Shown piece after piece: positions 4,710 to 40,187 of a DNA stretch of 43,589 bases. The notes under the pieces are model-generated. The model worked only from the letters and a program-made list of their open reading frames with translations. It made no database searches and was not told the origin of the DNA. The position numbers and the translations under genes are program-made. The number at the start of each line of letters is the position of its first letter. Positions within the stretch are counted from its first letter, which is position 1. The stretch is from a virus, in IMG/VR virus record IMGVR_UViG_3300038629_000146, positions 1 to 43,589 of that record; one strand, given 5' to 3'.

Positions 4710-5036
4710 ATGAACTGGACAATTATTAAGTGGGCAATCATAGCGGCTCTGGTGCTGGTCTCGTCGCTGGTGATAACTTATGTGCAGTACAACGGTCACT
4801 GGAGCATGGTCTACGAGGCTGTGCAGACGCCGGAAGTTCCCGGAGGGCAGAAACGATTCGTACTGTTCAACGAGGATGCATTGACGCGCCGGGAATGCAC
4901 TGCTCTCTTCGACGAGCATCTCCGCAGGTTGAACAACAACGCGTCGATCATCGAGTACGAAATAGGATGCGAATACCTGCGAACCAAGGGGCACGGCACT
5001 GAGTTCCAGTATCAAGATCAGTGGCTGATACCATGA
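4710..5036 (+). CDS. Single-pass membrane protein, periplasmic domain
   Basis: The ATG at 4710 places a hydrophobic segment (residues 5-25, IIKWAIIAALVLVSSLVITY) right at the N terminus, with GGA upstream; the longer frame from 4677 is not needed. The remaining 80 residues are soluble, with two cysteines (REC, GCEY), and would face the periplasm under the positive-inside rule. It lies between two Tat-signal genes, which suggests a shared envelope function. No family recognised. Confidence 0.6.
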   Translation: MNWTIIKWAIIAALVLVSSLVITYVQYNGHWSMVYEAVQTPEVPGGQKRFVLFNEDALTRRECTALFDEHLRRLNNNASIIEYEIGCEYLRTKGHGTEFQYQDQWLIP

Positions 5037-5365
5037 AACGAAGACAATTCATTAAAGGCGCAGTCGCTGCTGCAGTCGGTGCGGCATTACCACTAAGTGG
5101 GATAGCGCATCGCAGTCACGCGTGGTCGGCGGAATCCGACATGTGCCTCGTGTGCAGGATGACGATGCAGATGGTGCAGGAGACCGGACGGATCGAGTGT
5201 CCGGGCACGGCGCTCTACGACTACAAGACCTATAAAATTCACTTTACTCAAGAAGTTTTCTGTGAAGAAACGGCTGAGAAATATGCTAGGGCACTGGCGC
5301 ATTCGATGAGGCTGACCAAGGAGATGGTCGGAGTGAACGTATTCCACAGAGGATTTGGAGGATGA
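5033..5365 (+). CDS. Second exported protein with Tat signal and CxxC
   Basis: Starting at ATG 5033 (ATGA overlap), residues 2-8 read KRRQFIK, a clear twin-arginine motif, followed by an Ala-rich hydrophobic stretch (GAVAAAVGAALPLSGIA) and a likely cleavage after SHA near residue 30. A GTG at 5021 would add four residues. The mature part holds a CLVC pair and two more cysteines (ECPG, FCEE), which could bind metal or form disulfides. Not similar to the first Tat protein beyond the signal. Function unknown. Confidence 0.7.
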   Translation: MKRRQFIKGAVAAAVGAALPLSGIAHRSHAWSAESDMCLVCRMTMQMVQETGRIECPGTALYDYKTYKIHFTQEVFCEETAEKYARALAHSMRLTKEMVGVNVFHRGFGG

Positions 5366-5366
5366 C

Positions 5367-5957
5367 ATGAAACGATTACTCGCATTATTCTTACTGATGT
5401 TCGCGCTGCCAGTCTTCGCGCAGAACACCCTCACTTTCACTGCAGAGGTGACCTCCGGCGTGGAGGAGGTCGTTCCCGTTCTTACGTGGAACACAATACC
5501 TCTGGCTGATGCCTGTACAGCATCGGGCGATTGGGCCGGGGGTAAAGTACCGTCCGGGACAGAGACGCTGCCCGCGATAAGCGGGAGTGCAACTTATAAC
5601 CTTCAGTGCGAGTGGCTCGACGCGTCAGCAACTCTGACTTGGACGGCACCGACACAGAACACCGACGGAACTGCGTACACCGATCCGAAGGGGTTCAAGG
5701 TCTACTACGACATGACGCAAGGAGGACCGTACGAAAATGTCAACGACATCGCCGATCCGAATGCGACATCGCACATCGTGTTCCCACTTATTCCGGGGAC
5801 GTGGTTCTTCGTGTCCACCGCATACAATCAGAACGACGTGGAGTCGGAGATCAGCAACGAGGCTATGAAGATACTCGGACTGACCACTGAGACAGAGAGC
5901 GTTGGGATTACAGTCAACCCAAAGCCTGCCTCGCCGGAAAACCTCACCGTCCTATAG
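5367..5957 (+). CDS. Sec-secreted fibronectin type III-like protein
   Basis: The ATG at 5367 has GGAGG at 5357-5361 and begins with a standard Sec signal peptide (KRLLALFLLMFALPVFA, cleavage after residue 18). The centre (about residues 85-165) has the strand pattern of an Fn3 domain: LTWTAP, then GFKVYYD, then WFFVSTAYNQNDVESEISNE. Fn3 domains mediate protein or carbohydrate contacts. Secretion rather than virion assembly is suggested by the signal peptide and the neighbouring Tat genes. Confidence 0.6.
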   Translation: MKRLLALFLLMFALPVFAQNTLTFTAEVTSGVEEVVPVLTWNTIPLADACTASGDWAGGKVPSGTETLPAISGSATYNLQCEWLDASATLTWTAPTQNTDGTAYTDPKGFKVYYDMTQGGPYENVNDIADPNATSHIVFPLIPGTWFFVSTAYNQNDVESEISNEAMKILGLTTETESVGITVNPKPASPENLTVL

Positions 5958-5997
5958 ATCGACCTCCCGGTGGCTGCATTCGGTACCACAAAGTAAA

Positions 5998-6159
5998 ATG
6001 AGCAAGCGAAAGCAACAAGTGGTAAGACACGGGAAGGGAAAACATCGGACGGTCGGTCAACACGAAGAGGAACCGTGGTTCCAGAAGAAGCGAAACAAGA
6101 GTCGAAAGTCAACCAAGATCGCTAATCAAGCGAGACGAAATAACCGGAGAAAAAGATGA
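5998..6159 (+). CDS. Small highly basic protein, 53 residues
   Basis: A Lys/Arg-rich protein (SKRKQQVVRHGKGKHR at the start, RRNNRRKR at the end) with almost no hydrophobic core, so it probably binds nucleic acid. It ends in an ATGA overlap with the Acb2-like gene and is thus part of that transcript. A longer frame from 5902 overlaps the Fn3 gene and is rejected. The ribosome-binding site is weak. Confidence 0.5.
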   Translation: MSKRKQQVVRHGKGKHRTVGQHEEEPWFQKKRNKSRKSTKIANQARRNNRRKR

Positions 6160-6392
6160 GCGAGGGCGAAACAGTAAGTAGCGCGAGCGACGACCGAACG
6201 CGCAATAACGTGATGCGTCACGAGTATCGTATTTTAAGTGATGACGAGAAGCTGGCGATGCAAACTATCAAGGACGTGGGACGTGACTTTTACGAGCGCT
6301 TGTCTTGCATGGGGGAGAGTCGTGAACTCAGTCTCGCGAAGACCAAGATTGAAGAAGCGGTCATGTGGGGCGTCAAGCACTTAACGAAGTAA
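6156..6392 (+). CDS. acb2: Acb2/Tad1-like cyclic-nucleotide sponge (anti-CBASS)
   Basis: A 78-residue helical protein. From residue 14 on it matches the family pattern of Acb2/Tad1 hairpin proteins as I know it: RTRNN, HEYRILSDDEKLAMQTIKD, RELSLAKTKIEEAVMWGVKH. Acb2 proteins form hexamers that bind and sequester cyclic oligonucleotide signals of CBASS and blunt abortive infection. Tyr24 and Lys39 here have the same 15-residue spacing as the ligand-contacting Tyr11 and Lys26 reported for Acb2 (from memory). Which messenger it binds cannot be told. It lies in one operon with a Tad2-type gene, which supports a counter-defence role. Confidence 0.75.
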   Translation: MSEGETVSSASDDRTRNNVMRHEYRILSDDEKLAMQTIKDVGRDFYERLSCMGESRELSLAKTKIEEAVMWGVKHLTK

Positions 6393-20769: not shown

Positions 20770-21255
20770 ATGAACAAGAACGTGGGACTGACGTACGTGA
20801 AGGATTTCTCGTTCCCTGCGGAGCAAGGTTTCTCTGGGTCAGCGGGCGTGCACAAAGTGCGCGGTTACATGCGCGGCGGGCACGTGAAGTCAAAAGCGTC
20901 ACAGAAGATGCCGCCTACCGTCAAGGGCCATGGTGGCGCAGTGCACGACAAGCTTAAGAGTGAAGGCGCGAAGATGGGCTATGCCTACGGTGGTCAGGTG
21001 AAGCAAAGCAACACCTCTGCTGAGTTCGTTGCGAAACGTGGTAAGCAGAAGACCATGGACCACGGTGTGCAGCCTGCTCGCAAGGGACGCACCCAGCAGG
21101 AAGTTGAAGCTGGTGGCACTAAGCGATTGAAACCCGGTTTCAAAAAAGGCGGAGGCGTATGTAGAGTTCGTATGCCCAAGAACGTGAAAGCGAAAGGTGG
21201 GCTCGCAAAGTACGCCGCAGGTGGCTTAGCAAAAAAAGCCGTGGCGGCTCCGTAG
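20770..21255 (+). CDS. Basic GG-motif virion-region protein, zero-frame product
   Basis: CAGGAG precedes the ATG. The 161-residue product is strongly basic and carries several aromatic-x-x-GG-hydrophobic motifs (GYMRGGHV, GYAYGGQV, GFKKGGGV, KYAAGGLA), which also occur in the ejection-type proteins at 35239 and 38295. The zero frame ends at TAG 21253-21255, but an A_AAA_AAA slippery heptamer six codons earlier can send ribosomes into the -1 frame, where the same type of sequence continues to the next gene. The longer 202-residue product is probably the functional one, or one of two. Confidence 0.6.
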   Translation: MNKNVGLTYVKDFSFPAEQGFSGSAGVHKVRGYMRGGHVKSKASQKMPPTVKGHGGAVHDKLKSEGAKMGYAYGGQVKQSNTSAEFVAKRGKQKTMDHGVQPARKGRTQQEVEAGGTKRLKPGFKKGGGVCRVRMPKNVKAKGGLAKYAAGGLAKKAVAAP

Positions 21256-21377
21256 AGAAGACGGCACGCAGAGTCGCTAAACAAGTCATGGACCGGCACG
21301 TCAGATCCCCGAGACCAAAAGGTCACGGGACAAAGCCTCGTGGTGGTCGTAGCAGAGTGCGAGGAGGCGGCTACTAA
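21231..21377 (+). other. Candidate programmed -1 frameshift and its extension
   Basis: The heptamer A_AAA_AAA at 21231-21237 is in the correct register (GCA AAA AAA). After a -1 slip reading resumes at AGC 21237 and stays open for 46 codons (SRGGSVEKTARRVAKQ..., ending VRGGGY) to TAA 21375-21377, which overlaps the ATG of the next gene as TAATG. GCCGT at 21238-21242 can pair with ACGGC at 21261-21265. An alternative is a sequencing or assembly indel in the A7 run; either way the -1 frame appears to be coding. Confidence 0.65.
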
Positions 21378-28191: not shown

Positions 28192-28563
28192 ATGGCGAGG
28201 GTCACGAAAGAGCAGGGAATCAACATCAGCGCGAGTGTCTTCGTGTCGTGGCTTACGATTGGAGCCGCATTCTGGCTGGTAGCGAAACCCATTTTGGTTG
28301 CATCTGTCAGTACAGCGATGGCGGAAGATATTAAGCAGACGGTGCAGCAGGAGATCGCGCCGATCAACGCGGCTTTCGTGGCTCTTCTTCAAACGAACAT
28401 TGCGAACACTCGCCGGAAGATTGCGAGGTTGGAATTCAAACGTGATCAGCCACCGAATGGTGATTGGACAGCGCAGGATTCTGAAGACATGGTGAATCTC
28501 CAATTAGAATTGTCGAGCAGCGAGTCGGCTTTGGCTGCTCTAACGGTTACGAACACGAGCTGA
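28192..28563 (+). CDS. Membrane-anchored coiled-coil protein, spanin-like candidate
   Basis: Starts at ATG 28192 after CGGAG. One hydrophobic segment at residues 16-38 (VFVSWLTIGAAFWLVAKPILV) is followed by a periplasm-sized helical, coiled-coil region to the C terminus (NTRRKIARLEFKRDQ; LQLELSSSESALAAL). This is the architecture of an inner-membrane spanin, and the gene lies in one cluster with a lipoprotein, a holin and a putative lysin. Not a match to a named spanin, so the call is inference. Confidence 0.5.
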   Translation: MARVTKEQGINISASVFVSWLTIGAAFWLVAKPILVASVSTAMAEDIKQTVQQEIAPINAAFVALLQTNIANTRRKIARLEFKRDQPPNGDWTAQDSEDMVNLQLELSSSESALAALTVTNTS

Positions 28564-29042
28564 TGGAACTTACACTGAAACGATTCTCTGGTGCCGACGA
28601 GTCTACTCTCGGACTGATCTTTGTTCATGAAGATTTCTTCTGCTATTCGCTGGAGGATCAGCACAACGAGCCAAAGATTCCGGGAGAAACTCGCATTCCC
28701 GCAGGAGAGTATGAGATCAAATTTCGTAACGAAGGTGGCATGCTCACACGGTACAAGAAACGATTTGACTGGCACAACGGAATGCTGTGGCTCCAAGACG
28801 TACCGGGGTTTCGATTTATTTATCTTCACGTCGGCAATAAGGATGATGATTCGGACGGGTGCATCCTTGTTGGCGACGGTCAAGTTCAAAACGTGACTGA
28901 GCGAGGTCAGGTGACCAGTTCAGTCGCAGCATACAGACGACTTTACGAGACCATCACGGAAGCACTGTCACCCCTGCCGCCCTCCCAAGCGACAGAAGAA
29001 GTGTGGATCAAAATATACGACGAAGACGAGGAGATAACATGA
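28563..29042 (+). CDS. DUF5675 family protein, putative lysis enzyme
   Basis: A 159-residue protein matching DUF5675: STLGLIFVHEDFFCYSLED, GETRIPAG at 41-48, and HVGNKDDDSDGCILVG around 89-104. The His and Cys region recalls the HxxG...SxGC motif of L,D-transpeptidases, so a role on peptidoglycan has been suggested for the family, without proof known to me. Its position next to a holin supports an endolysin role; no other lysin is visible in the window. Starts in the previous stop (TGATG). Confidence 0.7.
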   Translation: MELTLKRFSGADESTLGLIFVHEDFFCYSLEDQHNEPKIPGETRIPAGEYEIKFRNEGGMLTRYKKRFDWHNGMLWLQDVPGFRFIYLHVGNKDDDSDGCILVGDGQVQNVTERGQVTSSVAAYRRLYETITEALSPLPPSQATEEVWIKIYDEDEEIT

Positions 29043-29272
29043 ACACGATCATCGGAGCGTTTGTCGCAATGGTTATCGCATTGCTGACGGCAGCATTGGC
29101 GCTGCTGAGCGGGGAAGGAGTCACTTCTTTGAGTGATATCTCTGGTCTTCAGTGGACCATCCTGATCATTGGCGGAGCACTTACATTTTCCAAGGACTTC
29201 CAGACGATTACTATCCGACGTCTGGCAAACAAAGTCACAGGCACGGGTGACGGAGGAGGTGCCGTAGGATGA
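29039..29272 (+). CDS. Holin-like two-helix membrane protein
   Basis: Start at ATG 29039 with GAGGAGA upstream. Two hydrophobic segments (3-24, TIIGAFVAMVIALLTAALALL; 37-52, LQWTILIIGGALTFSKDF) are followed by a basic, Gly-rich tail. The size, topology and the KDF after the second helix are typical of class II phage holins, which make lesions in the inner membrane to time lysis. Located between the putative lysin and a lipoprotein. Confidence 0.7.
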   Translation: MNTIIGAFVAMVIALLTAALALLSGEGVTSLSDISGLQWTILIIGGALTFSKDFQTITIRRLANKVTGTGDGGGAVG

Positions 29273-33406: not shown

Positions 33407-34971
33407 TGGCTGCACAACCTGCACTGCTCGCGTCACAGCCCGGTATCAAACGGGATGGGTCTCGTTTTGACAGCGATAACTATATCGACGGTCGGTGGTG
33501 CAGATTCCAACGTGGCAAACCGAAGAAGATGGGAGGCTACCAGCAGGTCACTGACACGGTGCCGGAGATCACACGGGGCATGTTCAGCTACTCGATGGAC
33601 AACATCCAGTTCCTGCATCTCGGACATCCCAATTCCATCGGACAGTATCAGGTCTCGAACGGAACGCTGAACACCTTTAATGATCGTACGCCTGCAGGCT
33701 TCCCCGTGGGGCTCGACATGCTGTGGCAGTTCGATGTCTTCGCCGACACTCAAGGCACCGGCAATCACTTGCTCGTTGCACATGCAGCGCCGAATGCAAT
33801 CGACATCGACAACTCAGTTGGTGGTGACATCTACATCGACACGATCACTGCTGCAGCGATACTCTCTACTACGGGATTAAATACCGATGTGGTTACTGGA
33901 TGGAACACTGGCACGTTTGGACCTGTCAGTGGTGGCGTCGTCGTCAGTGGTCAGTACCTGTTTGCGTACGGCAGCGACGGACTGATCAAACAATCAGCGA
34001 TCAACAACGTGGGTGATGTACCTGTCGAGTTCAACTTGGGCACGCAGAAAATTGTCAAAGGGCTCCCACTTCGAGGCGCGGGTAGTGGACCGGCTGTCCT
34101 GTTCTGGGCTCTCGATTCGATCATCCGTGGCACATTCCAACCTGCTGGTCCTCCTGATTTCGCATGGGACATCATTGCGAGAGGCATCACAGTCCTAAGT
34201 TCGCAGGGTATCGTCGAGATGGACGGTATTTATTATTGGCCGGGTGTTGATCGCTGGATGATGTTCAATGGTGTCGCGCGCGAGATCCCGAATGACATGA
34301 ACCAGAACTTTTTCTTTGACAACCTCAACTTCACGCATCGGAATAAAGTTTTCGGCTTTAAAGTACCTCGCTACGGTGAGATCTGGTGGTGCTATCCACG
34401 CAACAATGCGACTGAGTGTACTCACGCTGTGATCTTCAACGCGCGTGAAGGTTACTGGTACGACACACCGTTGCCCGATTCTGATGGCGTTGATCAGGGA
34501 CGCACGGCTGGCGTATTTGCCGACGTATACAAACGTCCGTTCATGGTAGACAACGAGGTGACTGCAAACGGTCGTACACTCTGGCAGCATGAGACTGCTT
34601 TCGACAAAATCCGCACGTCCTCGATCAGTGCTGTCCAGTCGTTCTTCGAGACTGCAGAGCTGTCGTTACTGGACACTGGTCAGAGCACCAAGTCGATTCG
34701 TTGTGCTCGCATCGAGCCTGACTTTGTGCAAACGGGTGACATGACCGTGACCATGAAGGGTCGAGCAAATGCCAAGGCAGCGGTGACAGAAGTGGCGGAC
34801 GTGCCAACTATCTTCGATACGCCTGCTACATCCGACGAAGAGACTGTGAAATTTAAAGACGTGAAACGGCTGATGAGTTTCAGGTTTGAGTCGAACGTAG
34901 CCGGGGGCAACTACGAGCTGGGTAAGACATACGCCCACATCGAACCTTCCGACGGGAGGGTTGAGTCATGA
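33406..34971 (+). CDS. Tail hub/stabilisation protein, gp10-like
   Basis: A 521-residue, beta-rich protein beginning ASQPGIKRDGSRFDSDNYIDGRWCRFQRGKP, a start I associate with a widespread phage virion family near adaptor genes. The repeated strand pattern with short turns through residues 50-380 fits a beta-propeller, as in P22 gp10 that plugs and stabilises the packaged DNA below the adaptor. Position after adaptor and fibre genes and before ejection proteins supports this. Assigned by position and pattern, not by a close match. Confidence 0.55.
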   Translation: MAAQPALLASQPGIKRDGSRFDSDNYIDGRWCRFQRGKPKKMGGYQQVTDTVPEITRGMFSYSMDNIQFLHLGHPNSIGQYQVSNGTLNTFNDRTPAGFPVGLDMLWQFDVFADTQGTGNHLLVAHAAPNAIDIDNSVGGDIYIDTITAAAILSTTGLNTDVVTGWNTGTFGPVSGGVVVSGQYLFAYGSDGLIKQSAINNVGDVPVEFNLGTQKIVKGLPLRGAGSGPAVLFWALDSIIRGTFQPAGPPDFAWDIIARGITVLSSQGIVEMDGIYYWPGVDRWMMFNGVAREIPNDMNQNFFFDNLNFTHRNKVFGFKVPRYGEIWWCYPRNNATECTHAVIFNAREGYWYDTPLPDSDGVDQGRTAGVFADVYKRPFMVDNEVTANGRTLWQHETAFDKIRTSSISAVQSFFETAELSLLDTGQSTKSIRCARIEPDFVQTGDMTVTMKGRANAKAAVTEVADVPTIFDTPATSDEETVKFKDVKRLMSFRFESNVAGGNYELGKTYAHIEPSDGRVES

Positions 34972-35234
34972 GTGTCATCGATCCTCGTGGCTTTACAAAT
35001 GTGATCGAGTGGGCAGACTTCATGGCAGGCGCATTGGGATTCTTCACCGATCCTGTGGCAGGGGCTGACGATCAGTTCGGACGTTTGGACGATCCAGACA
35101 AATGGCAGGACTGGGCCATGGGTGTGTTTGGTGGAGCAGATGCGCTTGGGCAGGACGTGCCTGATCCATTTGCATATGATGACTGGCGCGAGTGGGCTGA
35201 GAGACTGTTCGCAACAACAAATTTTACGGGATAG
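34968..35234 (+). CDS. Small acidic Trp-rich protein, 88 residues
   Basis: ATGA overlap with the hub gene. It carries two related units of the form DPxxWxDWAxxxFG (DPDKWQDWAMGVFGG and DPFAYDDWREWAERLFA), probably an internal duplication forming a helical pair. Small proteins of this kind lie between hub and ejection genes in related phages as I recall. Function unknown. Confidence 0.5.
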   Translation: MSVIDPRGFTNVIEWADFMAGALGFFTDPVAGADDQFGRLDDPDKWQDWAMGVFGGADALGQDVPDPFAYDDWREWAERLFATTNFTG

Positions 35235-35238
35235 AGAA

Positions 35239-37050
35239 ATGCCACGAAGTAATGTAGCGCAGAAAGAAATTGCAGCTCAACTGCAGCCCGAAGGTGGTCT
35301 GGCTCAGATGATGGCGCAGCAAGGCGCATCAAAATCCATGGTCAAGGATGTGCAGAAAATCGAGGACACACCGGGAGGCAAGGAACTGCTCTACACGTTT
35401 GCAGCTGAGGAGATGATGAAGAAGCAGGGTGTGCCGAAGGAAGACACCAAGAAGATCCGTCTCTACAAATACGGTGGCGCAGTCGAGCGAGCTTACGCTA
35501 AGGGTGGCGACGTCAAGGCTGCAGCAGCGACGGCACGAGGCGCAGGACGTGGCGAAGACGAGATGCTGGTTCACATGACCGAAGAAGAGTTCGGTGTTAT
35601 CAAAGGCATGTGGGGCGAACCTGATATCAACCCGAACACCGGGCTTCCTGAGTACGGCTTCCTGAGTAAGCTCTGGAAGGGTGTCAAGAAAGTCGTGAAG
35701 AAGGTTGTTAAATCGAAAATCTTTCAGGTCCTTGCACCTATTGCACTGTCGATTTTTGTTCCGGGTCTCGGTACTGCTATCGGTGGCATGCTGGGAGCTG
35801 GTACTGGTACCGCAGCGAGTGTCGTCGGTAACGCTCTGGTTCGAGGTGGGTTGAGTGCAGCCGGTGGACGGGGTTTCGCATCTGGAGCAATTTCCGGGGC
35901 TATCTCCGGGGGACTCGGTTCGATAGCTGGTGAGCAGGTTTCGAAACTTGCTCCCGGTCTGTCCGACCGCACCGCAGCAATCGTTGGTTCGAGCTTGGCA
36001 AGTGGCGCAGGGTCCTCATTGATGGGGGGCGACTTCGTTTCAGGTGCGGTCGCTGGAGGTCTCGGCGAATACATGCGCCCCGGAGTGGAAAGTCTCACCA
36101 AAAAGGGACAGGAGCTTTTCGGACGCGAGACGGTAGAAGGTCAGATTATGGCTGGGAAGGTCGGGGAAGCAGCCGACGGCTCCGTACTTGGTCAGCCTGA
36201 ACTTGGTTTAGACGAGATGGGTCCGACAACTGACATGCTTCCACCGGGACATCCTGCCAGTACACAAGTGGGTGCTCCGGGACCGGGTGGGGCATCCGCA
36301 GCTGCGAGAGTTACGCCGACAGGGAAACCATTTGGTCAGACTCCAGCTCCGAAGACAGACCTGCTGATGAAGTACGGTTTGCCTGCATTGCTTGGTGCTA
36401 GTGCCCTTCACAGCGGTAGTGGATATGAAGAAGGGGAAGCTCCTGAGCTGCCTCCGGGGTTCACTGAATCGCTGCCGGTTTACAGCATGAACCGACAGTT
36501 CCAAGGCATGGACCCCGCTTCGTACTACACGTACGGGCAGGTTGGTGCACCTCAATCGGCACAGCATCTGTTCCTGCAGCCTGAGCCATTCGCTGGAGAG
36601 GAGGGCACTCCGCTGGTAGATCCGGAAGCAGACTTCAGTGGTGCCGGGGGTGGTGGACGAGGTGGACGGGGTGGGGGCAGACGCTACCAGCGTGGTGGTG
36701 CGCTCGACCAGTGGGCTCAGAACGTTGACGTACCCTCCGCCATACCTACTGTGGCCGCGCAGGGACGTTATGTTAAAGGACCGGGCACTGGGAGGTCCGA
36801 TGACATCCCCGCACGCCTGAGCGACGGAGAGTACGTCATAGACGCAGAATCGGTTGCCCTCTTGGGTGACGGATCGGGGAGTGCGGGCGCTAAACGGCTC
36901 GACGAGATGCGTCAGAATCTCCGCAAGCACAAAGCGACGAATCTCAAGAAGGGCGGCTTTAGCCACAAAGCGAAACAGCCTCACCAGTACATGGCGCGAG
37001 GCGGCATGGCAAAATTGCGTCGAGCGATGACCGCATCAGGGAGAGTATAA
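35239..37050 (+). CDS. Ejection-type virion protein with membrane-active core
   Basis: A 603-residue protein; the ATG at 35239 is taken because the longer frame overlaps the previous gene. N-terminal helices are followed by two GG motifs (YKYGGAVERAYAKGG), then a basic and hydrophobic core around residues 150-260 (KKVVKKVVKSKIFQVL, APIALSIFVPGLGTAIGG) that could insert into membranes. Residues 514-563 carry GTGRSDDIPARLSDGEYVID...LLGDGS, a motif found in many phage virion proteins. Likely travels with the DNA into the host. Confidence 0.6.
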   Translation: MPRSNVAQKEIAAQLQPEGGLAQMMAQQGASKSMVKDVQKIEDTPGGKELLYTFAAEEMMKKQGVPKEDTKKIRLYKYGGAVERAYAKGGDVKAAAATARGAGRGEDEMLVHMTEEEFGVIKGMWGEPDINPNTGLPEYGFLSKLWKGVKKVVKKVVKSKIFQVLAPIALSIFVPGLGTAIGGMLGAGTGTAASVVGNALVRGGLSAAGGRGFASGAISGAISGGLGSIAGEQVSKLAPGLSDRTAAIVGSSLASGAGSSLMGGDFVSGAVAGGLGEYMRPGVESLTKKGQELFGRETVEGQIMAGKVGEAADGSVLGQPELGLDEMGPTTDMLPPGHPASTQVGAPGPGGASAAARVTPTGKPFGQTPAPKTDLLMKYGLPALLGASALHSGSGYEEGEAPELPPGFTESLPVYSMNRQFQGMDPASYYTYGQVGAPQSAQHLFLQPEPFAGEEGTPLVDPEADFSGAGGGGRGGRGGGRRYQRGGALDQWAQNVDVPSAIPTVAAQGRYVKGPGTGRSDDIPARLSDGEYVIDAESVALLGDGSGSAGAKRLDEMRQNLRKHKATNLKKGGFSHKAKQPHQYMARGGMAKLRRAMTASGRV

Positions 37051-38166
37051 ATGTCGAGCGTCCTAGATTTCCTATTTGAGGGAAAGCCTCCACAATCGGT
37101 TACAACCTACGGGCAGACTGTAGAAAATATCCCGAAGTGGATGTCCGATTACACGCAGGGGCTGATTGCACGTGCCAACGCGGCGGCAGCTGAGCCCTAC
37201 ATCCCGTACGGTGGACCGAGGATTGCTGGGTTCGATCCTGCACAAGAAGAAGCGTTCGGCATGACCGAGGAGAACGTCGGTGCGTACAAGCCGTACCTTG
37301 GAGCGGCTGAGCAAGGTTACACGGGTGGTTTGGACGCTGCAGCTAATATCTCCGGTGCAGGTCAGCCGTATATCGATGAGGCAAGTGGACGATGGACTGA
37401 TCCCGGCGTCTCCGAATCGTACATGAACCCGTACATCAGTGGCGTGCTCGACCGGCAGGAACAGCTTGCTACGCGCACGCTTGAGAAAGATTTTCTTCCC
37501 AGTTTGCAGAGAGCGTTCACAGGCGCGGGTTCGTTCGGTTCCCGTGGCGGCACCGGCTCAATGGAAAACATCGGTGTCCGGGGCGTGCAGGATATTCAGG
37601 AAGGACTCGAAGCACAACGACTGGAAGCACTCTCTGGAGCTTACGGTCAGGGAGCTGATATTTATGGCAGCGACCAATCGCGCTACGCAGATCTCGGTCG
37701 CCTTGCAGGCTCACTGCAAGAAGCGGAAGCAGCCAGTATGTACCAAGGTGCTGAGGGGATGGGTCGTCTGGGTGAGTTCGCACAACGAGCAGGTATGACA
37801 GACGCTGCAGCGATGGAAGCTGTCGGTGCACAGAGACGTGGACTTGAACAGGGCAGTCTCGATCTCGCCTATCAAGATTTCGTGGAGCAACGTGACCTGC
37901 CCTTCGAGCGCGTTGGATTTATGTCTGACACCATCCGAGGTCTGCCGTACTCCCGCGCGCAACAGCGCACGGATGTAGGACCGGCAAGTGTTTACCAACC
38001 GTCACCGCTGTCACAACTTGTCGGTGGCTACGGTGTGTACCGTGGACTCACAGACCAAGCTGAAGGTGGTTACATTGATCCTGAACAAGAATACGGGATA
38101 GGGGGTCTTGCCACAGCAGCGTGGGAAGGAATGTATAACTTGGGAAAAGCACGTGGGGCGGACTGA
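37051..38166 (+). CDS. Internal virion protein, zero-frame product (371 residues)
   Basis: GGGAGA precedes the ATG, which directly follows the previous stop. The protein is Ala/Gly/Gln-rich and helical; YMNPYISGVLDRQEQLATRT and FTGAGSFGSRGG are marks of a common phage internal-protein family of unknown role. It lies within the ejection cluster. The zero frame ends at TGA 38164-38166, but a G_GGA_AAA slippery heptamer six codons earlier leads into an open -1 frame that continues to 38291, just before the next gene. Confidence 0.65.
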   Translation: MSSVLDFLFEGKPPQSVTTYGQTVENIPKWMSDYTQGLIARANAAAAEPYIPYGGPRIAGFDPAQEEAFGMTEENVGAYKPYLGAAEQGYTGGLDAAANISGAGQPYIDEASGRWTDPGVSESYMNPYISGVLDRQEQLATRTLEKDFLPSLQRAFTGAGSFGSRGGTGSMENIGVRGVQDIQEGLEAQRLEALSGAYGQGADIYGSDQSRYADLGRLAGSLQEAEAASMYQGAEGMGRLGEFAQRAGMTDAAAMEAVGAQRRGLEQGSLDLAYQDFVEQRDLPFERVGFMSDTIRGLPYSRAQQRTDVGPASVYQPSPLSQLVGGYGVYRGLTDQAEGGYIDPEQEYGIGGLATAAWEGMYNLGKARGAD

Positions 38167-38291
38167 CACGCTTTGCGCAGTCACTTCGTCCCAACCCCGG
38201 CGATAGTATCGGTGTCTTGGGGGGTCACACGCTGACCGACAACGAGACGAACGAACCAAGAAAGAAAGAGTTGAAGTGGAAGCAGGATTGA
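38142..38291 (+). other. Candidate programmed -1 frameshift and its extension
   Basis: The heptamer G_GGA_AAA at 38142-38148 is in register (TTG GGA AAA) and resembles the lambda tail-gene slip site GGGAAAG. A -1 slip gives 47 further codons (STWGGLTRFAQSLRP..., ending ELKWKQD) to TGA 38289-38291, three bases before ATG 38295. A stem GACTG/CAGTC (38161-38165 and 38178-38182), with CGC/GCG inside, lies 12 bases downstream and could stimulate slippage. Extension product about 413 residues. Confidence 0.65.
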
Positions 38292-38294
38292 AAC

Positions 38295-40187
38295 ATGCGG
38301 TCTGAAGTGGAAAGGGCATTCGACGAAGGAGGCGAAATAAAAGGCCGTTCATCGGACAAGACATTTGAGGAAATGAAACAGAGATTCCGTAGTCGCGTCT
38401 TGGGGGAGATGAAAATGCTTCCGACCGGCGAGATGGTTCCCGCGAATAAAACAAGCACATCACCGATGAGGAAATGGGAATTAAATAGGCTTGCAAAGGA
38501 AGTGGACCCGAATGAGCTAGAGATGCTAGCACATCACCAATCGTTACAGGCAGGCGAAGAGGGTGGTCGCATCGAAGTGTACGCAGGTGGTGCAATGGAG
38601 TGGGTGCCCAACGGTCCCGGCGGAGTGCCGCAGCCTACGACAGGTGACGTATTCTTTGACCCGATTGCAGACGAGCAGCGGAAAATTCAGGGTGACGCAA
38701 ACATGAAACAGTTGATGCAACGTATGATCTCGCAAGGTGTTGTAAACAAACCGTCAGCGTCAGACAAACGTCTCCTGCAGGGAGGCCGGAAAAAATTTGC
38801 GCGAGGTGGAGTGGTGAAAAAATTTCAGAACGGTGGACTGGCGCAGGTAGCTGGTCCTCTGGATGAGGATGAAGAAGAAGGCTTTGATGCTGCGCAGGGG
38901 ATGGGCGTTGACCAGATTCTTTCATCGGTAGGCGCGGAAACTCCACCCGACCTGTACAAGATGGCTGCGATGAATCGCGATACAGCCCTTCAACAGTTGC
39001 GTGCGGGACAGGCTGAGTTCAGCGAACGTAGAGATAGACAGAATAAACGTGCTAAACAGGACAGGTGGCTTGCGATGGCGCAGGCAATGCTGTCACCGAC
39101 AAAGACAGGTGGGTTCGGTGAGAATCTCGGCATGGCTGCAGGTGCATTGCGAGACCAGTCAGCGCAGCAGATGGAAGTTGAATCGTTGCATGCGGCAGAA
39201 GAGCAGAGGTTTGCCGAAAGAGAAATGGAAGTTGCCGGTGATTACTTCGATTCGCTCGCCAACTTGGAGGGCTTTAAGAATAACAGTCGTGCACGTGTGG
39301 TCGGTACGAAGACTGTCATCACTCCGGAGGATAACGCACGCATTGCTGCAAAAGAGATCACGGAAGCGGACGCGGAAAGGAACGTCATCAGCATCATTAT
39401 GCAGCCGGATGGCAAGACCGTTTCTCGTATAGAAAAAGATGCAAACGGTCGTCCTTGGGTCATTGTTGATCCGAAGTTGGTACCGTCACAGGCAGCTGCT
39501 CAGACAGTAGCAACAGTGACTGCAGCATCATCTGTGCGGAGTCAGTTCGATACAGCGAAGATGGGTGTGAATGCTATCCCCATAGTGACAAAACTGCAGC
39601 GAGCGTACGGACTGCTGCGAAGTTTGAAGGAAGACACGAGTGGGCTGAACGAAAAAATTCGTCAGGTCGCACAGTGGGCAGGCATCAGCGAGCTGATCGA
39701 CGACAACACTACCCTAGCAGTCATTCACCAAATGTTCGGGCGGCAAGTGTTGGACGATCTGCGCATGTTGACAGGTAGCAAGACTGACTACGAATACGGG
39801 AAGGTTGAAGGTATGAATGCCAACCTTGGTAAAAGCGTACCTGAGAGTCTCGCCATTCTTGATGAGCATATGATCAGACTGAATGAGATGGTCGATAAAG
39901 GTGAGTTCGCTGCGCAGAATATCTCACAAGGTCCCGGTACTGAGGAGAAGGACTTCTTGCTCAAGCAGTACTTGAACCACCGTAAATTTCAGGCTGAAGC
40001 AGCTGTAGAATACGACGCAAAGACGCGGGAAGCACCTGAGTCAAAACTTGAAAGTTTGATCGAAGCTGTTCGACAGAATGAAGGTAACCTCGAAGAGCAG
40101 AGCGAGCACATCAAGATGTTCCGAAAGTATTATGACATTCCGGAAGAGGTAGAACTGATACTCCGTACAGCAGGAGCGGGAATCTAA
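38295..40187 (+). CDS. Ejection-type internal virion protein (630 residues)
   Basis: AGGA precedes the ATG. The N-terminal 160 residues are mixed. GG motifs (KFARGGVVKKFQNGGLAQ) occur at 167-187. The rest is mostly helical: a basic coiled coil (AEFSERRDRQNKRAKQDRW, near 240-260), a long Ala/Gln/Glu-rich region, and a C-terminal helical domain (HQMFGRQVLDDLRMLTG). Size, helicity and position next to other internal proteins fit an ejection or core protein; no enzyme motif seen. Confidence 0.55.
   Translation: MRSEVERAFDEGGEIKGRSSDKTFEEMKQRFRSRVLGEMKMLPTGEMVPANKTSTSPMRKWELNRLAKEVDPNELEMLAHHQSLQAGEEGGRIEVYAGGAMEWVPNGPGGVPQPTTGDVFFDPIADEQRKIQGDANMKQLMQRMISQGVVNKPSASDKRLLQGGRKKFARGGVVKKFQNGGLAQVAGPLDEDEEEGFDAAQGMGVDQILSSVGAETPPDLYKMAAMNRDTALQQLRAGQAEFSERRDRQNKRAKQDRWLAMAQAMLSPTKTGGFGENLGMAAGALRDQSAQQMEVESLHAAEEQRFAEREMEVAGDYFDSLANLEGFKNNSRARVVGTKTVITPEDNARIAAKEITEADAERNVISIIMQPDGKTVSRIEKDANGRPWVIVDPKLVPSQAAAQTVATVTAASSVRSQFDTAKMGVNAIPIVTKLQRAYGLLRSLKEDTSGLNEKIRQVAQWAGISELIDDNTTLAVIHQMFGRQVLDDLRMLTGSKTDYEYGKVEGMNANLGKSVPESLAILDEHMIRLNEMVDKGEFAAQNISQGPGTEEKDFLLKQYLNHRKFQAEAAVEYDAKTREAPESKLESLIEAVRQNEGNLEEQSEHIKMFRKYYDIPEEVELILRTAGAGI

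Follow-up and report, generated by a model that had tools for sequence, protein, structure and literature searches.

In the 43,589-nt window analyzed here (IMG/VR virus record IMGVR_UViG_3300038629_000146, positions 1 to 43,589), an ORF of the virion region starting at 37051 ends 128 nt before the next ORF, which raises the question of whether the gap at 38167-38294 is coding and how ribosomes might reach it. The comparison with relatives points with high confidence to a programmed −1 ribosomal frameshift at 38142-38148, by which two forms of one probable virion protein would be produced.

Slip site and reading frames

The zero-frame ORF (37051-38166, plus strand) encodes a short form of 371 aa with full-length homology to IMG/VR relatives and is terminated by the TGA at 38164-38166. 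In phase with this ORF lies the slippery heptamer G_GGA_AAA (GGGAAAA, 38142-38148, plus strand), which is conserved in relatives. The −1 frame is closed by a TAA (38136-38138) one codon upstream of the heptamer. After slippage it contains 47 sense codons (38148-38288) followed by a TGA (38289-38291), so that the −1 extension (38148-38291, plus strand) results in a long form of 413 aa. The in-register heptamer, the −1 frame open for 47 codons with its stop 3 nt before the ATG at 38295, and the filling of the 128-nt gap by this frame had all been proposed in the original prediction and were borne out. The first ATG, GTG or TTG in the −1 frame downstream of the heptamer is a TTG located 23 codons in. 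Due to this late start codon and the TAA just upstream of the heptamer, the extension is best read as a fusion, an independent ORF being a poor alternative.

For the rarity of such sites, 172 ORFs of at least 200 aa in related loci were scanned over their last 60 codons. In-phase XXXAAA[A/G] heptamers were found in 19 cases, 16 of which belong to this gene, and none of the other genes among these ORFs combines a heptamer with an extension past the stop codon. Given its protein and codon usage, any one gene has a 2-45% chance of carrying such a heptamer near its 3′ end; it is thus the combination of recurrence, phase, coding extension and stimulators that carries the case.

Relatives and site classes

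Three scans of IMG/VR resulted in about 35 distinct close relatives, all of them metagenome assemblies, as well as more distant ones. A pattern scan for other assemblies of the window's own site returned three known relatives only, and a scan of genome contigs returned two remote homologues only. The extension carries the motif ..LSRWARSL-P....GV-GGK.L...KQD, which constitutes the C-terminal module of the long form. This module is located in the −1 frame behind G_GGA_AAA in the window, L016, L029 and L031, and behind C_CCA_AAA in L009, L010 and L012, while a related extension follows G_GGA_AAG in the −1 frame in L048, L050, L054, L056, L057, L078 and L138. Every gene with a −1 extension has an in-phase canonical heptamer. 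Comparison of relatives had been suggested as a check, and heptamer, stem and −1 frame are indeed conserved in L016, L029 and L031.

In 15 further genes (L001, L003, L005, L008, L011, L014, L015, L030, L036, L043, L045, L046, L047, L051 and L053) the module is encoded continuously in the zero frame, with a C-terminus (..LSRWARSLYPD....GVAGGKLLKL.HKQD) homologous to the window extension. Among these, L001, L030, L015 and L045 also contain an in-phase GGGAAAA, and no heptamer was found in L043, L051 and L053; frameshifting is thus not indispensable across the whole clade. More distant homologues lack the module altogether, and extension and heptamer are absent from the homologues in Caulobacter phage GB2A and Planktothrix phage Pag-Yong1.

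In nearly all of 26 genes examined, the stop codon of the long form lies no more than about 15 nt (mostly −4 to +4) from the point where a long downstream ORF begins; in the window this is the ORF at 38295-40187 (plus strand). This adjacency holds whichever frame encodes the long form; L078 has only a shorter downstream ORF. Frameshifting could thus also affect re-initiation at the downstream gene.

Probable stimulatory elements

A hairpin of 16 bp (38154-38193, plus strand), starting 5 nt downstream of the heptamer, is the probable stimulator of the window site. In four sequences, 98% of its pair cells are kept, and folding compared with synonymous resampling of the window gave p = 0.010. The stem-loop of the original prediction is real but larger than described, and its GACTG/CAGTC register is not conserved; the conserved inner register in relatives is TGAC/GTCA, with a compensatory TGAG/CTCA. 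Covariation in the four-sequence hairpin is too sparse for significance. In the window group, the same codon is used at 8 of 11 invariant residues under the hairpin, compared with 1 of 7 just downstream. For all eight GGGAAAA genes, the downstream folding energy is about 2-3 SD below that of synonymous resamples of the same protein (p 0.002-0.036), in the extension and continuous groups alike, and the p-values combine to about 3e-6 when one per subclade is taken. The hairpin of this class is stronger than the protein sequence requires.

Upstream of the window site, an SD-like sequence GGGAAGGA (38123-38130, plus strand) ends 11 nt before the heptamer. It is a possible stimulator, rated as weak because it is kept in L016 but not in L029. 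All ten CCCAAAA genes carry an internal SD GCGGAGGG that ends 12 nt upstream of the heptamer, a spacing inside the range of 9-14 nt upstream described for SD-stimulated −1 shifting (PMC5009743). No unusual downstream structure was detected in these genes by synonymous resampling. Their AEGG motif is always encoded as GCG GAG GGT GGG, an exact string that is absent from 44 other AEGG motifs, one of which differs only in the last base; since the ten genes are mutually related, the Fisher value on the AEGG codons is descriptive only. Among the GGGAAAG genes, a downstream hairpin at a distance of about 6 nt was found in L054, L056, L057 and L138 (p 0.016-0.064), and no clear stimulator was seen in L050 and L078.

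Apparent reversal of polarity

A single continuous frame in relatives had been named beforehand as evidence that would speak against frameshifting. Such frames exist (the 15 genes listed above), but they do not refute it, as 12 of the 15 retain an in-phase heptamer together with a stimulator (the hairpin for GGGAAAA, the internal SD for CCCAAAA), with reversed polarity. A −1 shift in these 12 genes would reach a stop codon at most 10 codons further on and leave the product 29-74 residues short of the long form. One base in the spacer that separates heptamer from module distinguishes the window from L001, and one base upstream of the heptamer distinguishes it from L003. On a tree built from the shared N-terminal 325 residues, at least four switches occur between a long form made by shifting and one made in the zero frame, along with four changes of heptamer type. 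Provided that the heptamers of the continuous genes are functional, this pattern would represent a dnaX-like reversal of polarity. The reversal, the second site class (CCCAAAA with internal SD) and the full hairpin were missing from the original prediction.

It is unlikely that the heptamers of the continuous relatives are mere relics or accidents of codon choice, with shifting restricted to the extension group and no true reversal. Several observations would fit this explanation: a −1 shift there adds only a few codons and gives no known product, the −1 stop codon in most CCCAAAA genes is part of a common GCT GAG motif, and given the protein, chance alone would place a heptamer in as many as 45% of these 3′ regions. 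Against it, hairpins as extreme as those of the extension group are found in L001, L030, L015 and L045 (p 0.004-0.010), the stems of L015 and L045 are distinguished by a compensatory change from AGCG/CGCT to AACG/CGTT, and all 7 continuous CCCAAAA genes retain the unit of SD and heptamer.

The two-product output thus seems to be a conserved trait, in which the product needing the shift has been reversed about four times; most simply, selection would act to maintain the production of both forms. Efficiencies near 50% would then be expected, an estimate derived only from the evolutionary reversals. L016 (IMGVR_UViG_3300020234_000015, 5001-6280) suggests that the 3′ cassette can be exchanged by recombination within the gene: its N-terminal part groups with the CCCAAAA gene L012, and its 3′ end, comprising heptamer, hairpin and module, is window-like. 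We lean towards a model in which selection maintains the supply of two forms of a virion or ejection protein with different C-termini, and not the direction of the shift. The form that needs slippage would switch through single-base indels and through interchangeable 3′ cassettes made up of heptamer, stimulator and module. This would imply efficient shifting near 1:1 and the use of both forms by the particle, beside a second independent −1 frameshift in another virion-region gene of these phages.

Selection on the −1 extension

The dN/dS values in the −1 frame (Nei-Gojobori) are 0.15-0.47 in the window group (four phages), 0.12-0.28 in the CCCAAAA group and 0.10-0.27, where calculable, in the GGGAAAG group. 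The extension is under purifying selection in all three groups, which argues against a decaying remnant or an assembly error. Together with the conserved heptamer, stem and −1 frame, this supports the reading as a −1 frameshift put forward originally.

A truncating frameshift mutation in the lineage, with the extension as its remnant and a coincidental heptamer, would agree with the distant homologues without the module, in which it must be dispensable. The selection on the −1 frame, the presence of stimulators and the fact that no −1 extension occurs without a canonical heptamer in phase make such a truncation highly improbable. A sequencing or assembly indel at one G or A, which the original prediction had left open, is a still weaker explanation. 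The gene would then truly be one continuous frame as in L001 or L003, homologues from which the frame relation of the window is one base away. However, L016, L029 and L031 are separate assemblies, so that four distinct assemblies have the same frame relation despite many substitutions; the −1-frame TAA and the zero-frame TGA are common to the window and L016, and this arrangement is found again in the CCCAAAA and GGGAAAG genes. Slippage during transcription of the A run would result in the same protein and is equally far from probable, as the run comprises only four A, compared with the much longer runs of bacterial cases (e.g., 9 A or T; PMC5009743), and as the conserved phase, the hairpin downstream and the internal SD are characteristic of ribosomal shifting.

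Protein identity and gene neighbourhood

Profile searches with the 37051 protein against Pfam, PHROG and PDB gave no match. An AlphaFold prediction for the L001 protein (29 sequences) resulted in a helical model of low confidence (pLDDT 57, pTM 0.28). Of the flanking genes, those upstream have matches to a virion structural protein family and weak ones to tape-measure families; on the downstream side, an ORF with similarity to phage DNA transfer proteins is followed by a terminase small subunit. Homologues are present in Caulobacter phage GB2A, where the gene is located in a similar structural block, and in Planktothrix phage Pag-Yong1. The product is likely a virion or ejection-apparatus protein, and the earlier label of an internal virion gene remains likely. 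Repeated motifs resembling AEGGY and GGLA(x)YA occur in several virion-region proteins, including those of 37051-38291 and 38295-40187, and in relatives.

Other sites in the window

Two virion-region sites with different heptamers had been predicted, and a scan of the window for 3′-terminal in-phase heptamers with a long −1 extension found exactly these, at 21231 and 38142. The former, A_AAA_AAA at 21231-21237 (window 20770-21377), is followed by a −1 extension (KKSRGGSVE..VMDRHVRSPRPKGHG..) that is conserved in at least 12 distinct relatives (L092-L114) and ends at the start of the next gene. In L104, A_AAA_AAA is replaced by G_GGA_AAA; the extension is absent in L099, L100, L108, L115 and L116. 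This −1 frameshift candidate is well supported.

The region 28563-29272 was rejected as a companion site, as it contains an ordinary ATGA-overlapping ORF (29039-29272). An in-phase AAATTTT (35219-35225) is located at the end of the ORF at 34968-35234, where the −1 frame extends only 23 nt past the stop codon. Near the N-terminus of the 37051 gene, a second in-phase heptamer, GGGAAAG (37080-37086), lies in an EGK motif and recurs in several relatives; its −1 frame stops after about 37 codons or fewer, and it is probably a codon coincidence.

Proposed mechanism and significance

The features expected of programmed −1 frameshifting were found together: an X_XXY_YYZ site in zero-frame phase, a coding and conserved −1 frame, and a 3′ structure or an SD at 9-14 nt as stimulator. 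Ribosomes remaining in frame at G_GGA_AAA would stop five codons later and release the 371-aa form. A fraction would pause at the hairpin 5 nt downstream, where the tRNAs may re-pair on GGG_AAA, and the shifted ribosomes would read 47 more codons. The resulting 413-aa form would have its first 366 residues in common with the short form, so that the two forms differ by the presence of the C-terminal module. As the stop codon of the long form abuts the next start, frameshifted ribosomes may favour re-initiation there. Relatives would keep the double output with other heptamers, some with swapped roles, the long form being made in the zero frame and the short one by slippage. The site, the stimulator and a coding extension under selection emerge from the comparison of sequences; from these we infer a useful efficiency of slippage, the use of both forms and a possible coupling to the next gene. 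In E. coli, X_XXA_AAA may be less slippery than X_XXA_AAG, and the host here may differ.

The short list of phage virion-region genes using frameshifting would thus gain an apparently undescribed member, for which sequence comparison supports the site, the stimulators and the extension. The polarity reversals provide a natural experiment, which predicts the efficiencies of about 50% and indicates which parts of a recoding cassette are kept when the frame relation flips. Many relatives are probably misannotated, since gene callers miss the long form of the extension group and, for the continuous genes, never report the short one. In the open-access literature, neither a polarity reversal in a phage virion gene nor a frameshift in an ejection or internal virion protein was found.

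Comparison with known systems

With lambda G/GT, the locus shares a −1 shift near the 3′ end at GGGAAA[A/G] and short and extended products; here, however, stimulators are present and some relatives are continuous. The 37051 protein has no PHROG or Pfam match to tail assembly chaperones, and its ORF is located downstream, not upstream, of the ORF at 35122-37050 with weak tape-measure matches, which differs from the position of G/GT. The frameshifts of T7/T3 gene 10 and of the coat and tail proteins of Lactobacillus A2 and Listeria phages (PMC5009743) likewise add an alternative C-terminal extension to a virion-gene product, whereas here there is no match to a major capsid or tail protein, and the extension is short and without a recognized domain. 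The likeness to dnaX (tau/gamma) comprises the X_XXY_YYZ site, a 5′ SD and/or 3′ hairpin, and two forms differing by their C-terminal part; the polarity of the dnaX frameshift is also reported to be reversed in some bacteria (PMC5009743). In contrast to dnaX, a phage virion-region gene with its site near the 3′ end is concerned here, hairpin and SD serve different site classes, and the reversals would recur inside one phage gene family.
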